From Phaffia rhodozyma (taxonomy: Eukaryota; Basidiomycota; Tremellomycetes; Cystofilobasidiales; Mrakiaceae): a DNA stretch of 64,000 nt. Location: NCBI GenBank assembly GCA_014706385.1, contig JACGZH010000003.1:1753501-1817500 (forward strand), written 5' to 3'. How positions within the stretch are numbered: position 1 is the stretch's first letter; each line of letters starts with the position of its first letter. Below, piece by piece: positions 7,047-13,204 of the stretch. The notes under the pieces are model-generated. The model saw only the letters and a list, made by a program, of their open reading frames with translations, ran no database searches and was not told where the DNA came from. The translations under genes and the position numbers were made by a program.

Positions 7047-8633
7047 TTACAACCCTCTGACAAGCCTATAAAGATCTGCCACCAAATATAAACTCCCACA
7101 GACCACAATCAATCCATCCTTCGCGCCTTCTACCGCCCATTGAACAGCCCTCTCTAACCCGTTTGATTCAGTTGTCACCCAAACATCTCCAGTCGGACCT
7201 ACAAGACCTCTTCCTACATCAGCTACCTCGTCTAGAGGGCAAGGTCTAACCCACGGCATCCCTTCAATAGGCGTTGTAAAGTTGACGAGTGCTACTCTAT
7301 CACCTGAACGGATGAGCGGAGAGAGCGTCTCATGTGGGGTTTTCGGAGGTGAATGAGAAAGAGAGATGATAAACGTTGTCGGATGAATTGGCGCGGTTGA
7401 AGAGGAGGAACAGTGAAGGGAATCTATGTAGGATCGAAGAAGGGTGGCCGACGCATGATTATGCGCTCCATCCACCAAGATTCGTTTTCCTTCGTGAACC
7501 GTAAGAAGAGAAGAGAGATGAGTCGGTAGATCCTCTAAGGGGACCCATGAGCAACGCCCTTCCCAAACTGTTTCTCTTATTCCAGTCTTGATGACCTCGT
7601 CCGTCAATCTGGACTTGAATGAAGGAATTATCGACAATGGTTTTCGATGCGAACGGAGGGTGTCCAAGACAGAAAGAGCGAGAGATAGATTGTCTCGTTG
7701 ATGGGAACCTGGGAGGGGTAACTGGCTGATTAAGATAGGAACGGGATTGGATGAATACGTCGAGATGAAGGATTCGAGTGCTTGGACATTGTTATTATCG
7801 TCTATGCTTGATGAAGTTGAGCACGCTGCTTTGAGAAGAGATAGTTGGGATGATAAGGTTGAGGCCGCTGCCGCCGCCGATGATGATGATGATGACAGCG
7901 AGGAGAAAGAGGAAGAGCGTGGTAAAGGTGTGATTACTACCTGACCGGATACACTCTTTAGCTCCTCTCTCTCCTCCATACCGATGAATGCTCTATTGGC
8001 CCAGACGATGTCCGCCTCCCGTTCCTTTCCCAAGGACTTGACTATCCTCCCCACATCCTCTTGGTGAGTCTGTAAACCAACTACCAGCACGCCTTTCTCC
8101 TTAACAATCCCTGCCTTCGTCCTCGCGATAGCTTCTATCGTATTCCCAAGGAAAGCTTGATGATCTAAATCAACAGACGTCAGAACGCAAGCTAAGACGA
8201 GCTCGGCAGGAAAGACATTGGTTGCATCTTGAGTACCCCCCATCCCACATTCGATTACCAGTACGTCCAACTTTGTTCCTTCCAATGCGTCTCGGTATCG
8301 TTCGAATATTTGCAGAGCCGTGACAGTCAAGACCTCGAACAAACTTGCTCCTGATTCAATCTCTTTATCCACACGTTTGACTTCCTCTCTGACTTTATCA
8401 TACACCGTTCTCTGACAAGGTTGTCCGTTTAACCGAATGCAATCTTCGGCAGAGATCAAATGAGGAGAGTTGAATCGACCGGTTTGGTAGCCTCCGGTAA
8501 GAAGAGTAGAGTCTAGAAGAGCAGATACTGATCCTTTGCCGTTCGTTCCAGCGAGGTGGATGACGGGAATAGTGAGCGGAGGAAACCGAGAGAGTAGGAG
8601 GGTGATCCGATCGAGGCCTGGGTTGATTGACAT
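7047..8633 (-). CDS. FOL3: Dihydrofolate synthase (Mur-ligase family)
   Basis: Catalyses ATP-dependent addition of glutamate to dihydropteroate to give dihydrofolate. One uninterrupted reading frame of 528 codons, a rarity in this intron-rich region. Residues 29-35 are the P-loop GTNGKGS; SPHL (56-59) is the folate-binding loop; ECGMGGTQDATNV (128-140) is the omega-loop/Mg site; TSVDLDHQAFLG (152-163) and ARTKAGIVK follow as in Mur ligases; late in the protein VDGAHNHAS is the family's ligase signature in the C-terminal domain. Dihydrofolate synthase is preferred over folylpolyglutamate synthase because the protein starts directly with the G-L-D-R-I helix, as in Fol3, and lacks a mitochondrial leader. 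Around residues 235-260 a Ser/Ala run is inserted. It converges with BET4 across 135 bp. Confidence 0.92.
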   Translation of the reverse strand: MSINPGLDRITLLLSRFPPLTIPVIHLAGTNGKGSVSALLDSTLLTGGYQTGRFNSPHLISAEDCIRLNGQPCQRTVYDKVREEVKRVDKEIESGASLFEVLTVTALQIFERYRDALEGTKLDVLVIECGMGGTQDATNVFPAELVLACVLTSVDLDHQAFLGNTIEAIARTKAGIVKEKGVLVVGLQTHQEDVGRIVKSLGKEREADIVWANRAFIGMEEREELKSVSGQVVITPLPRSSSFSSLSSSSSSAAAAASTLSSQLSLLKAACSTSSSIDDNNNVQALESFISTYSSNPVPILISQLPLPGSHQRDNLSLALSVLDTLRSHRKPLSIIPSFKSRLTDEVIKTGIRETVWEGRCSWVPLEDLPTHLSSLLTVHEGKRILVDGAHNHASATLLRSYIDSLHCSSSSTAPIHPTTFIISLSHSPPKTPHETLSPLIRSGDRVALVNFTTPIEGMPWVRPCPLDEVADVGRGLVGPTGDVWVTTESNGLERAVQWAVEGAKDGLIVVCGSLYLVADLYRLVRGL

Positions 8634-9105
8634 GATGGAGTGGGGACCAAAAAATTATATGAGGAGGCAACGAATGATTGATAGGGATGAGAAGACTTAT
8701 GAAATCTCATCTTGATCTAATCTTTCCGCAGTTTGTCCATCTCCTTCTCTCTATCAAATGTGCTCGTGTACTCTCCAATATTGGCGTACCACGTTGTGAT
8801 AATGAGTTTGATAGAGATACAGAACCGACGTCGAATGGAAGATGGTGGTGATGAATGGAAAGAAAAAGAAAAGAAAAAAAAGAGCAAGGAATTGAAAGTA
8901 GTGATATAGCGAGGTCCATAACCACGATCGACAGGCATTCCTGCCTCTGATCGACTTTTGAATGTTGTACTTTAGAAAGAACAAGAAAGAAAAAGAAAAA
9001 GAAGACACAATCTCTTTTGGTAAGAAAGAGCGATCAAAAGTACAGGAGCAAGAGGACCAAGATAACAAGAATCTCAATCGAAACTCTGATGCAATGAACA
9101 TGACA
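8634..9105. other. Gap between FOL3 start and eIF4A-like stop
   Basis: Contains the promoter of FOL3 (transcribed leftward) and the 3' flank of the eIF4A-like gene. Two A/G-only tracts lie here (about 8859-8889 and 8974-9006), which are C/T tracts on the FOL3 coding strand. The open frames across them are low-complexity and not credible genes. Confidence 0.55.
8974..9006. repeat. Polypurine tract with AAAAAG/AAAG periodicity
   Basis: The stretch consists almost only of A and G (one C), with repeated AAAGAA/AAAAAG units. A second such tract sits at 8859-8889. On the strand transcribed for FOL3 these are CT-rich and upstream of the start codon. Confidence 0.7.
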
Positions 9106-12100
9106 CTAGAAAACTTCTCGCAAATTGACGGGAACCTATTTACTCAAAGATAATTCAAACGTAGGTTGGTAAGCAAATCCTCGACAATACATCCATATCA
9201 AGAAATCAGCTAGTCTCACCTCAGAACATTTGAATTTGTACGCGCACTCGATGCTTCGGAGCATTTCTACATCGCCTCCATTGGCTTGAATCAAATTGAC
9301 GACTACGCCTGGTCGGCTATGAGAGATTGTCTGAGCAGGGGATACTCTGTTGGCCGAACGTCGTCATAGAGAGCGAACAACTATATGTTAGCCGTTGCAA
9401 CTAGAAAACGTGTGAGGAACAAGAAGTTCGACGGAAAGACATACCGTTGAGCGTATCCCTCGACAGATCTAGGCAGGTCATAATTGATCACCAGACGCAC
9501 CACTCCGACATCACTGGCCTTGACAGTCAGGTCAAAGATGACCAACACTTTACTTCGACCGTTAGTGGAAGGGTTTCGGAACTTTGTCAAGAGAGCCGAT
9601 CGGGCCTGAGTGCCCATATCGGGATGCTGTCGAGATCCAGAAGCAATCGAGAAGAAAAAAGCTCAATCAGTAAGTCGCCTGTGGCAAACCTGGCTCACTA
9701 AATATATGGTTTACTTACCAAGAATAGAGCCTCAACGCCACGGTTGGACAATTTGTACACGACAGAGTCCATAGCAGCTTCACTACCAACAAACACAATC
9801 GCTGGTAAGATGGTTTCGTCATCCAGCAGATCCGCCAAAGCATCCAATTTCCACTCCTTGGCCTGGTTGGCCTCGCTGCCCGTTCCTGTCGCACGACCCG
9901 ATCCAATCGCTCCTGTTTCGGCACTAGCTCTGGAAGGACCATGCGTCGTGAAAGCCAGGTACAGGTAGAGATGTTTGAGACCACCGGCGGCCGCGCCACC
10001 CACCGAAGAGGTTGCCAGGTCAATATTCGCTGACGTGATGGACGAAGCGCCTTGGCCACCTCCACCTCCTCCTCCTCCGCCTCCACCATCTCTTCTGACA
10101 AGCACTCGGACGGGCTCTCGAACCTGAATCGCGTTACTGAAGTTTAACACGTCCTGTGGAACCGTATTTGAGAACAGGCAAGTCTGACGTTCGACACCGT
10201 TGTTATTTACTCCTTCCACGGGTCCTGGCATATGTACCGATCCAATAGCTCCGGCTGGGTTGTTGCCTGGGAACCGACGAGAAGTACCTGGGAACTGGGT
10301 ACTGGAAGCGGGGTTGAAAGGCGAGGAAGCTCCGGTATCGTAGGGAGAAAGGATGGAAGGAGACATCAGGGCTCCACCCCCGGGAACTGCACCCGCCAGT
10401 CCTCGAGATCGGGGCAGGGGAAGTTTCTTGACGACCTCGATCTGTCGTTTACAAAGAACAGTTAAGATAGAATACTTGAGATGCATGTATGATCAGCATC
10501 GCTCACAAAAAGAAAAATCGACTTACGACAAACTCATAAAGGTTTCGAGCGATAAGTTGGTCAACCTCATCAATCTAGATAAGGAGTATACGGATTTCAT
10601 AAGCAAGGAAATTTAAAACAAAGGAAAGAGAGATAATCCAACTTACCACCAAGAACCTGACGAGCTCTCCGCTCAAAGCTCTAGAGGAAGTGAACAGCTC
10701 AGAGATCTTGGCCGGCGTACCAACCACAATTGAAGGAGCCAGCATTCGCTGCTCGTCGATCCAGCCTCCGTTGGAATTGTTGGCGGACGAAGATCCGACA
10801 CAGAGCGAAGATCGAAGACCGAGAGGGGTGGCTAGGTCTCGAACGCTTATTACATTTTCGTGCACAAGCCACCTGGTGTCATCTTTCTGCGCACATTTGA
10901 ACTCAAACAAAGAAAATAACGAACAGTTTATAGGCCTGTGTCGCCTGATCAACAGTAGTGGTGATGATCACTACTTGAGGGCCCTTGTAGGGCCCACTGA
11001 CAGGATGGGATAAGCAGGCATTGATTCCGGGCACGACACTGGTAAAGATAAGCACATAGATGGATGAGGAACACCTCAATAAAGCAGAATAAATCCATGT
11101 CTGAAGCAAGCTCACTAAGCAATGATCCTTTCCTGAGTCGGGGGGGCTTGAGCAATGATATCCGCTCCTCGAAGAAGGAAAGGCAAAGCCCTCTGTTGAA
11201 CCTTGTTGGGAGGTCCAATTCTATCAAGATGCAGTGAAAGAAGACGTCAGCTCATATCTTACACATGGACACCATAAGATAGTCTGAGGAGTGACTGGAC
11301 TTACCCATATTTGAGAACAGCTCTCAATAATTCTGGAACAAGACCGACTTGGTCCCACTTGGTAACGTTGTGAGCTGTACCAGGACCCATGTTGGACCCT
11401 CCAGGAGTGACAGGACCCGGAGGCGGAGCAGGCCAACCACTTTCGTTTGAGGTCTGTATTTCCTAACATGCAAGGTTTATCAACGTTAGATATATGCGTT
11501 TCAGTTGGTATGATCTTCAGACAATGAATTGATAAATTTGACTAGCCTCGTAACTATCCACTCTACTCAAGTTTATTACTGGCCTTCGCAACCCAGTCGC
11601 TCCGGGCGTCGGCGGCTTGTCTCCTGTATTTGTACCTACTCCACCGCTAGTACCGGTGTATGGACTCGAGAAACTTCTAGCCATATCTGGCCGACCGGAG
11701 AGAGCGCTTCCTGGCCTGGATCCTGGCGCATTGATCCATTGGGTGGCGGCAGCTAGAGACATACCGGCAGGCGTTCCTGGTCCTCCACCAGGCGAAGGCA
11801 GAGGGAACGCAGGTGAGAGCGGAGCTGCCGTTCCACCGGTCATGCCAGGCGCGACGAAAAACGGGGAGGGGGTGTGATGCGCCGAAGGGGAGGATACTCC
11901 TGATGTAAGCGCAGGAGTCGGTCCTCCTGTAGGCGTGACCGTCTTGGAATCAGGCAACGTCAGGTTGAAAGGCACTTGCTCCCGGCGATACTGATTAGGC
12001 ATCGGCGAGGGAAGATCCATTTGAGGGGTCACCGTTGTTCCTTTAGATGTCTGTTGCTGGAGCGCAACGAGAGCTTGAAGCTGGCTGACCGAAGTAGAGA

Positions 12101-12840
12101 GCGTCATGACCTGACTGGCGAGCAATCGAATCGCATCGGGCGACATCTCTGTTTGTCGATCTCGGACACTATTGTTGTTGCCGTTGATGTCAGCAGTACC
12201 AGAGTTGGAGGGAAGAGAGAGTCCAGGAGGTACTGGCGAACGGCTGGCATTAGCCTGTACCGAGTTCGAATGAACGGAATACGATTGAGAAGTCGAAGAG
12301 TTTGAGGAAGTCGGCCGGTTGGGAAGAAGAGACGTCAGAGAAGTATTCAAGTTGACGAGTTGCCCGGACAAAGATAGGACAGATGCTTCGGTCTGAGTAA
12401 TCCTCTGAGTCAAGTTCTATGAAACCAACAAAAAAAAGACGACAAGAATCGTGACGTTGATGAGCGTGTGAGCTGGTCCTCAAGATGAAAAGAACCTTTT
12501 TCAGACGGACTAACCTTGATCAAAGGACTATCTCGAAGAAGCTTATCTAGCTCGTTGTCGACATGAATGTCTTGCTGTACACCAAGACCAACTCCGGGCG
12601 AAGGAAGAGGCAAGGCCCCTCCCTCTCCGATGATGCCCTCCCAGCCTCCAACCCTACTGCCTCCAGATACACCCCAGACGTCATTCTGTCCGTTGCCATT
12701 AGCTCCCCAGACTGCACCATAAGCAATACCTCCTATCCCAGGAGTAGCCCTTCCACTACAGGGAATAACGACTGAGGCAGCTGGAGTCTTGTTATTAATC
12801 TCCTTAGCTATTCCAGGAGTGGTCTGTGATGGGGCGGATC

Positions 12841-12872
<32 letters not shown>

Positions 12873-13204
12873 GGCGAAGGTGTGAACACGCCGGCTTGAC
12901 CATTCAAACCCGTCCCTCCAGGGGACGAAGGTCGAGATGCTGCTCCAGTTCCTCGAGCTCCACTACTAGTCGCACCAAGACCTCCATTAGCACTGGGGTT
13001 TGAAGACGAGGTGTTGGAAGAAGTTGATGAAGCGGACAGCGTCGCCTTATGCGATGGCTTCCATTCTGTTCTTGGCGAGCTGGGTTCGGGAGTACTGATA
13101 TTAGGCGTGGTCGCATTGAAGGAATCTGACGAAGTGGACGTGTATGAAACGTGAGTCCGGAGAGGAGACGGCGGAGGGAGTTGAGAAGGTGGCAATCTTG
13201 GCAT
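9106..13204 (-). CDS. eIF4A-like DEAD-box fold with degenerate helicase motifs, long low-complexity N-terminus
   Basis: I recognise the fold but no named gene. About 11 exons encode roughly 1,100 residues. The first about 550 are Ser/Pro/Gly/Ala-rich, with a poly-Ala run and a possible short coiled coil (TQRITQTEASVLSLSGQLVN). The helicase core then starts with WDQVGLVPELLRAVLKYG and VQQRALP (Q motif kept). Motif I reads AQAPPTQERI (11124-11153) where eIF4A has AQSGTGKT; Ia reads TTTVDQA; Ib TPAK; II DEVD (10560-10571); III SNT; V FDLTVKASDV; VI YAQRVSPAQTISHS in place of YIHRIGRSGR. Spacer blocks match eIF4A closely: EWKLDALADL, VINYDLPRS, GVVVNLI, final VPVNLREVF. Long inserts sit between motifs II and III and again (poly-Gly) before EWKLDALADL. 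ATP hydrolysis looks impossible; an RNA- or eIF4G-binding scaffold is conceivable but unproven. Confidence 0.75.
10053..10089. repeat. Trinucleotide-like tract coding poly-Gly
   Basis: CCA/CCT/CCG units on the plus strand encode eleven consecutive glycines on the minus strand, inside the eIF4A-like protein between its two RecA-like domains. The codons are mixed rather than a pure repeat. Confidence 0.7.
12842..12870. repeat. (AGC)n microsatellite coding poly-Ala
   Basis: A pure run of nearly ten AGC units. Read on the minus strand it gives consecutive GCT alanine codons in the low-complexity N-terminus of the eIF4A-like protein. Pure triplet runs vary in length between strains. Confidence 0.85.

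Follow-up and report, generated by a model that had tools for sequence, protein, structure and literature searches.

Proteins that retain the fold of a DEAD-box helicase after losing its motifs are already known, and Utp25 (Def), a published DEAD-box pseudohelicase of the small-subunit (SSU) processome, is described as the first fully validated pseudohelicase (PMC9539457). A 2025 survey describes UMAG_05873 of Ustilago maydis as a "basidiomycete-specific DEAD-box RNA helicase"; its function is given there as unknown, and STRING connects it to translation (PMC12511879). Here we report on a gene of Phaffia rhodozyma, located in a 64,000-nucleotide stretch of contig JACGZH010000003.1 (assembly GCA_014706385.1, positions 1,753,501 to 1,817,500 of the forward strand; the whole stretch is called the window below), and on its relatives in other basidiomycetes. 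Judged from its sequences, this family is a pseudohelicase, in which the helicase fold is kept, catalytic motifs are lost, and the loss is itself conserved. A description of the family as a pseudohelicase was not found in the open-licence PMC literature.

The encoded protein resembles eIF4A (DDX2) and eIF4AIII/Fal1 (DDX48) in the order of its two RecA domains, in a C-terminus that aligns to the last residues, and in the Q-motif glutamine, D-E-x-D, EWKLD and INYDLP. Unlike these helicases, the family has no P-loop and no arginines in motifs Ia, V and VI, and it carries a disordered insert between the RecA domains and an N-terminus of about 550 residues. Like Utp25, compared by description only, it combines a disordered N-terminus with a DEAD-box fold whose motifs have been lost; the DEAD sequence is described as lost in Utp25 (PMC9539457), whereas D-E-x-D persists in the family, which is far nearer to eIF4A. 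UMAG_05873 is basidiomycete-restricted in the survey, and the smut relatives P0251 and P0255 are named "related to TIF2 - eIF4A"; the survey differs in treating UMAG_05873 as a helicase in which several canonical motifs are present, on data that it does not show (PMC12511879). Our guess, made from that description only, is that UMAG_05873 is the smut member of this family.

Database searches with the window protein matched 496 proteins (E ≤ 1e-3, 7990 scored), and two padded searches matched 304 and 139; with 120 matches listed from each, 268 distinct relatives were obtained. Missing from the family are the P-loop GxGK[TS], the arginine of PTRELA in motif Ia and the arginines of motifs V and VI. 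GxGK[TS] occurs in 0/268 listed relatives, as does the HRxGRxGR pattern of motif VI; the window protein has AQAPPTQERI at the former position and YAQRVSPAQTISHS at the latter. Motif II reads DEVD in the window, with its acids kept and the alanine changed, and DEAD is present in one of the 268 listed relatives (P0233, from a metagenome). A SAT-P string was seen in one listed relative (P0211) and an ARGxD string in two (P0026 and P0266), counted anywhere in the protein. The Q-motif glutamine, the three acids of motif II (D-E-x-D), S-x-T of motif III and a T and an A of motif Ia are kept family-wide. An earlier note on this DNA had declared every catalytic motif lost, which holds for the P-loop and for the Ia, V and VI arginines, and does not hold for the glutamine, D-E-x-D and S-x-T.

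The replacements are themselves nearly fixed. QAP[PAS][TI][QT]ER stands in place of motif I in 269/269 aligned proteins (the 268 listed relatives plus the window), and S[NC]T in place of motif III in 268/269, the remaining one having a gap. Weighted entropies, computed on 268/269 cores (P0206 lacked an anchor) and averaging 1.06 over the core, were low for the motifs of the first domain (Q 0.33, I 0.16, Ia 0.23, Ib 0.36, II 0.15, III 0.16) and high for GG (1.62), IV (1.59), QxxR (1.72), V (1.57) and VI (1.39). Motifs I, Ia, II and III in their rewritten form thus rank among the most invariant core positions, and motifs IV to VI of RecA2 drift. At sites where the eIF4A and Fal1 of the same genome agree, the family is more than 90% fixed for a different residue at 33/134 positions in RecA1 and 8/123 in RecA2 (p 7e-5). 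Since the replaced pocket is near-invariant, we take the change to be functional and not a passive loss.

Named relatives among the matches listed come from Agaricomycetes, Tremellomycetes, Pucciniomycotina (Rhodotorula, Sporobolomyces, Leucosporidium) and Ustilaginomycotina (Ustilago, Sporisorium, Tilletia, Exobasidium), and so from all three basidiomycete subphyla. All 20 of the 20 named Pucciniomycotina carry the P-loop replacement AQAPAIQERI or close variants, together with DECD or DETD. Many of them nevertheless retain SRGLD- and HRI-like remnants of motifs V and VI, which smuts and Agaricomycotina have lost further. The alignment therefore indicates a single, early rewriting of the pocket, with erosion of RecA2 at a later time.

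The window gene (13204 to 9106, minus strand) comprises 11 exons encoding a protein of 1081 aa. Its introns measure 72-98 nt; all acceptors are AG and the ten donors are GT or GC, with GC at intron 2. The coordinates, strand, exon number and motifs quoted in the earlier note were all right.

12515 to 13204, minus strand: exon 1, with start codon at 13204; disordered N-terminus, equal to deposited protein P0207 except for 22 residues
11547 to 12416, minus strand: exon 2, followed by the GC donor
11305 to 11462, minus strand: exon 3; RecA1 core from residue 553 (11366)
11116 to 11220, minus strand: exon 4; Q motif GPPNKVQQ (11193-11216) and motif I replacement AQAPPTQERI (11124-11153)
10925 to 11038, minus strand: exon 5; motif Ia replacement TTTVDQA (10942-10962)
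10647 to 10845, minus strand: exon 6; motif Ib TPAK (10707-10718)
10527 to 10574, minus strand: exon 7; motif II DEVD (10560-10571)
9719 to 10441, minus strand: exon 8; disordered insert, motif III SNT (about 10163-10171), GAIGSGR (9893-9913) and the RecA2 acidic patch ADLLDDE (9815-9835)
9445 to 9626, minus strand: exon 9; degenerate motif V FDLTVKASDV (9507-9536)
9220 to 9346, minus strand: exon 10; rest of degenerate motif VI YAQRVSPAQTISHS, and GGDVEMLRSIE (9247-9279)
9106 to 9135, minus strand: exon 11; C-terminus VPVNLREVF and stop, aligning with eIF4A EMPMNVADLI

The deposited P. rhodozyma protein (P0207) is identical to the window protein over 1056 residues, with two differences in gene model. 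For intron 2 it uses the same GC donor and an acceptor 9 nt further on, and so lacks the three residues that start exon 3; it also lacks 22 residues (66 nt) around a poly-alanine run. Correcting the gene model restored neither GKT nor HRxGRxGR. A candidate acceptor for exon 6 at 10872 was rejected, as it adds nine residues that are surplus relative to aligned relatives, and 10845 was adopted. In the whole genome (19.77 Mb, 15 contigs) a second copy of the gene was not found at the sensitivity used. The next match was the true eIF4A locus, at 39% identity, and the eIF4A and Fal1 loci of this genome have GTGKT, DEAD-type and HRIGRxGR motifs all intact.

Kinship with eIF4A is supported by several comparisons. 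The C-terminal half forms an eIF4A-type core of two RecA domains (Pfam DEAD 2.2e-10 and Helicase_C 2.7e-11, both over cut-off), and human eIF4A-I was the best match of the single-sequence PDB search (1.8e-38); in these searches, and in the one returning 496 proteins, the query core included the nine surplus residues that the 10872 acceptor adds. A profile built from 49 family members scored 250.7 bits against eIF4A-I, 224.1 against eIF4AIII, 220 against yeast eIF4A and 138.9 against Dhh1, the first three being its top ranks (best 60 of 128 PDB sequences). An NCBIfam scan returned nothing but bacterial DEAD-box models, all under cut-off. The AlphaFold model of a Mrakia relative (P0001), in which 253 of 607 residues have a predicted local distance difference test score (pLDDT) of at least 90 (mean 73.3; predicted template modelling score 0.50), shows two confident RecA halves with a disordered insert between them, and its RecA1 superposes on eIF4A with a root-mean-square deviation (rmsd) of 1.9 Å over 206 residues.

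Phylogenetic analysis of 14 family members and six DEAD-box proteins of the same genome recovered the family as a clade with support of 100, grouped with eIF4A and Fal1 at 96 and 97. The approximately unbiased (AU) test preferred a position beside both eIF4A and Fal1, and rejected placement as sister to eIF4A (p 0.0245) or to Fal1 (0.006), or with Dhh1 (0.0385) or Sub2 (0.005). The Shimodaira-Hasegawa test rejects no placement (eIF4A-sister 0.156; Dhh1 0.29), and the Kishino-Hasegawa test does not reject Dhh1 (0.056). Because each outgroup is represented by one sequence and the family branch is long, we claim descent within the eIF4A/eIF4AIII group and nothing narrower. The idea that this is a non-decayed eIF4A relative without a P-loop, raised in the earlier note, is borne out by the 269/269 replacement, the complete absence of GxGK[TS] in the listed relatives and the top rank of eIF4A-I among its kin; the related-species search found the family in many basidiomycetes, and the tree with eIF4A, Fal1 and Dhh1 set it beside eIF4A and Fal1. 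The invariance of the replacement motifs across the family, and the N-terminal motif and helical segments described below, go beyond that note.

The N-terminus of about 550 residues, which had been taken to be disordered, is indeed mostly predicted to be so; it also contains two conserved helical segments and, in the window protein, a motif of the type known as PABP-interacting motif 2 (PAM2), PABP being the poly(A)-binding protein.

12878 to 12907, minus strand: PAM2-type motif LNGQAGVFTP, residues 100-109; candidate peptide for binding the MLLE domain of PABP, pattern LN..[AS]..F.P
12324 to 12556, minus strand: conserved helical segment 1, residues 217-261, spanning intron 1; conserved block in 27 N-termini and helix in the P0040 model
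12051 to 12146, minus strand: conserved helical segment 2, residues 321-352; conserved block in 27 N-termini and in the P0040 model, at lower confidence (pLDDT 56-59)

Two blocks stand out as conserved in an alignment of 27 diverse N-termini, both with the heptad character of helices. The model of a Mycena relative (P0040; mean pLDDT 59.9) shows them as helices, one at 197-235 reaching about 83 and a weak one at 280-305 with 56-59, most of the remainder falling below 50.

Of the 231 N-termini exceeding 300 aa, 133 contain the PAM2-type pattern, where shuffled sequences gave 0.33 on average; the carriers are 132/162 Agaricomycete-like N-termini and the window. Shuffling the window N-terminus 20000 times gave a match in a fraction of 0.0006. 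These controls are weakened by the non-independence of related sequences, and the better argument is a fixed motif between varying flanks: in 126 anchored rows, in which the anchoring itself fixes the P-F-x-P part, the L is fixed in 126 and the N in 122, with flanking columns down to 13-60%. Candidate peptides for the Pab1 MLLE domain are LNGQAGVFTP in the window and LNPASMPFFPGG. Compared with the PAM2 consensus xxLNxxAxEFxP and PAM2 proteins such as Upa1, as given in PMC4466420, the Agaricomycete LNPASxPFFP and the window LNGQAGVFTP fit the frame of L, N, F and P; Agaricomycetes have S for A, and E before F is absent. One MLLE gene and three MIF4G matches over cut-off are present in the genome.

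The poly-alanine run (window 12830-12890) adjoins the PAM2-type motif. The 66 nt removed by the deposited model fall here, so that P0207 lacks the second half of the motif's residues. We think that this stretch is translated, because it encodes the poly-alanine run and inspection by eye shows no clear branch site. A second N-terminal motif, EF..PF.P (PEFKDPFAP in Agaricomycetes), was found in 71/231 N-termini against a shuffle mean of 0.04, in sequences that are not independent.

Contacts between human eIF4A1 and eIF4G are given as R45, D265, E268, D296 and T298 (PMC7470955). Among the cores of the listed relatives, R45 is kept in 256/268 and D265 in 259/268, and the position of E268 is acidic in 254/268. 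The motifs that face RNA (Ia, Ib, GG, V and VI) have changed in the family.

At the sequence level, fold and kinship, loss of the P-loop and the arginines, and strong constraint on the replacement motifs are established. As to function, the balance tips slightly towards an ATP-independent scaffold derived from eIF4A, with putative partners, in messenger ribonucleoprotein (mRNP) organisation or translation control: the altered core is kept almost unchanged across many mushrooms, yeasts and smuts, and is therefore probably a docking platform and not an enzyme. RecA1, with its nearly invariant rewritten pocket, would offer a fixed, nucleotide-independent binding surface, RecA2 may retain part of a MIF4G-docking face, and the N-terminus could tether the protein to PABP in lineages with the PAM2-type motif. 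Such a protein would work in the cytoplasm, either as a scaffold for mRNPs or as a modulator of eIF4F; it might, for instance, hold on to an eIF4G-like (MIF4G) partner close to PABP, or compete for one there. A bolder version, which we advance tentatively and consider more likely wrong than right, is that an eIF4A-type helicase was duplicated in a basidiomycete ancestor, its ATP pocket was remade, from AQAQSGTGKT to AQAPxxQERI, as a conserved binding site of a new kind that needs no nucleotide, and the copy became a fixed look-alike of eIF4A bridging PABP and an eIF4G-like partner; basidiomycetes would thereby have gained a level of translation control not present in other eukaryotes.

Several observations weigh against the scaffold reading. 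D296 is lost in 268/268 cores and T298 is E or D in 268/268, and the Sub2 of the same genome has R, D and D at the three kept contact positions, so that these are not specific and do not prove eIF4G binding. The PAM2 pattern occurs in 0/57 proteins from P0212 on (Pucciniomycotina, Ustilaginomycotina, metagenome) and is absent from 11 other N-termini, among them P0207, the deposited model of the window gene itself; the motif therefore fails as an explanation for the family as a whole. Conservation of RecA1 is uneven, since its GG doublet drifts. As D-E-x-D, S-x-T and the Q-motif glutamine are kept, residual nucleotide contact is possible. In full-chain fold comparison, a chain of a pre-60S entry came first, tied with eIF4A, at large rmsd, and eIF4A was not separated from other DEAD-box proteins; the rmsd is large because the domains sit differently, and fold alone thus does not pick eIF4A.

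It seems unlikely that the protein is nuclear and, in the manner of Utp25 or of a partner of CWC22, serves ribosome assembly or splicing as a pseudohelicase. Utp25 provides the precedent (PMC9539457), and the same RecA2 acids of eIF4AIII bind CWC22, as reported for D270K/D273K (PMC4482076), if our inferred equivalence with D265/E268 holds; however, PABP is the partner suggested by the PAM2-type motif in the proteins that carry it, the closest kin of the family is eIF4A and not a ribosome-assembly helicase, and STRING ties the probable smut member, weakly, to translation (PMC12511879). The two RecA domains might instead hold RNA constitutively, as a nucleotide-free clamp similar to an eIF4AIII anchor with no need of ATP, as would suit the presence of eIF4AIII among the closest relatives and the basic residues at altered sites (R to K in Ib). 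We consider this clamp quite unlikely, because alteration or drift affects Ia, Ib, GG, QxxR, V and VI, the motifs that contact RNA, and RecA2 has lost constraint there. It is improbable that the protein is a weak enzyme binding ATP or another nucleotide non-canonically through the kept glutamine, D-E-x-D and S-x-T: these are near-invariant, and the K to R change leaves a positive charge where the Walker lysine stood, but neither GxGK[TS] nor HRxGRxGR survives in any listed relative and a P-loop glycine is replaced by E. A decaying pseudogene, mis-splicing or a wrong gene model, for which minor model differences and nothing more could be cited, is hardly credible and was rejected in view of the intact model, the deposited identical protein P0207 and the same substitutions in 268 listed relatives.

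If the scaffold reading is right, all three basidiomycete subphyla have preserved the fold of a core translation helicase for a non-enzymatic role, and the family is a clear test case for the change from helicase to scaffold. Many database entries label its members RNA helicase or translation initiation factor, and surveys of fungal helicases should check the motifs before assigning activity.

In the otherwise variable insert ahead of RecA2, GxIGSGR (window 9893-9913) is kept in 211/268 listed relatives. One relative, P0231, is a fern entry (Adiantum nelumboides, on a 1.2-Mb contig); as it is 91.8% identical over 1242 columns to P0230 from Meira (Exobasidiomycetes), its contig is probably fungal contamination. 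Six Agaricomycete entries (P0144, P0157, P0163, P0191, P0196 and P0205) have an N-terminal RNA recognition motif (RRM) ahead of the core by Pfam, alike in sequence in two Tulasnella and one Ceratobasidium entry and different in the others; gene-model run-ons or true fusions are possible, and these proteins were not used as evidence. Next to the gene, a minus-strand open frame at 7047-8654 looks by eye like a folylpolyglutamate synthase, its one Pfam match being Mur_ligase_M at 23 bits (cut-off 24).

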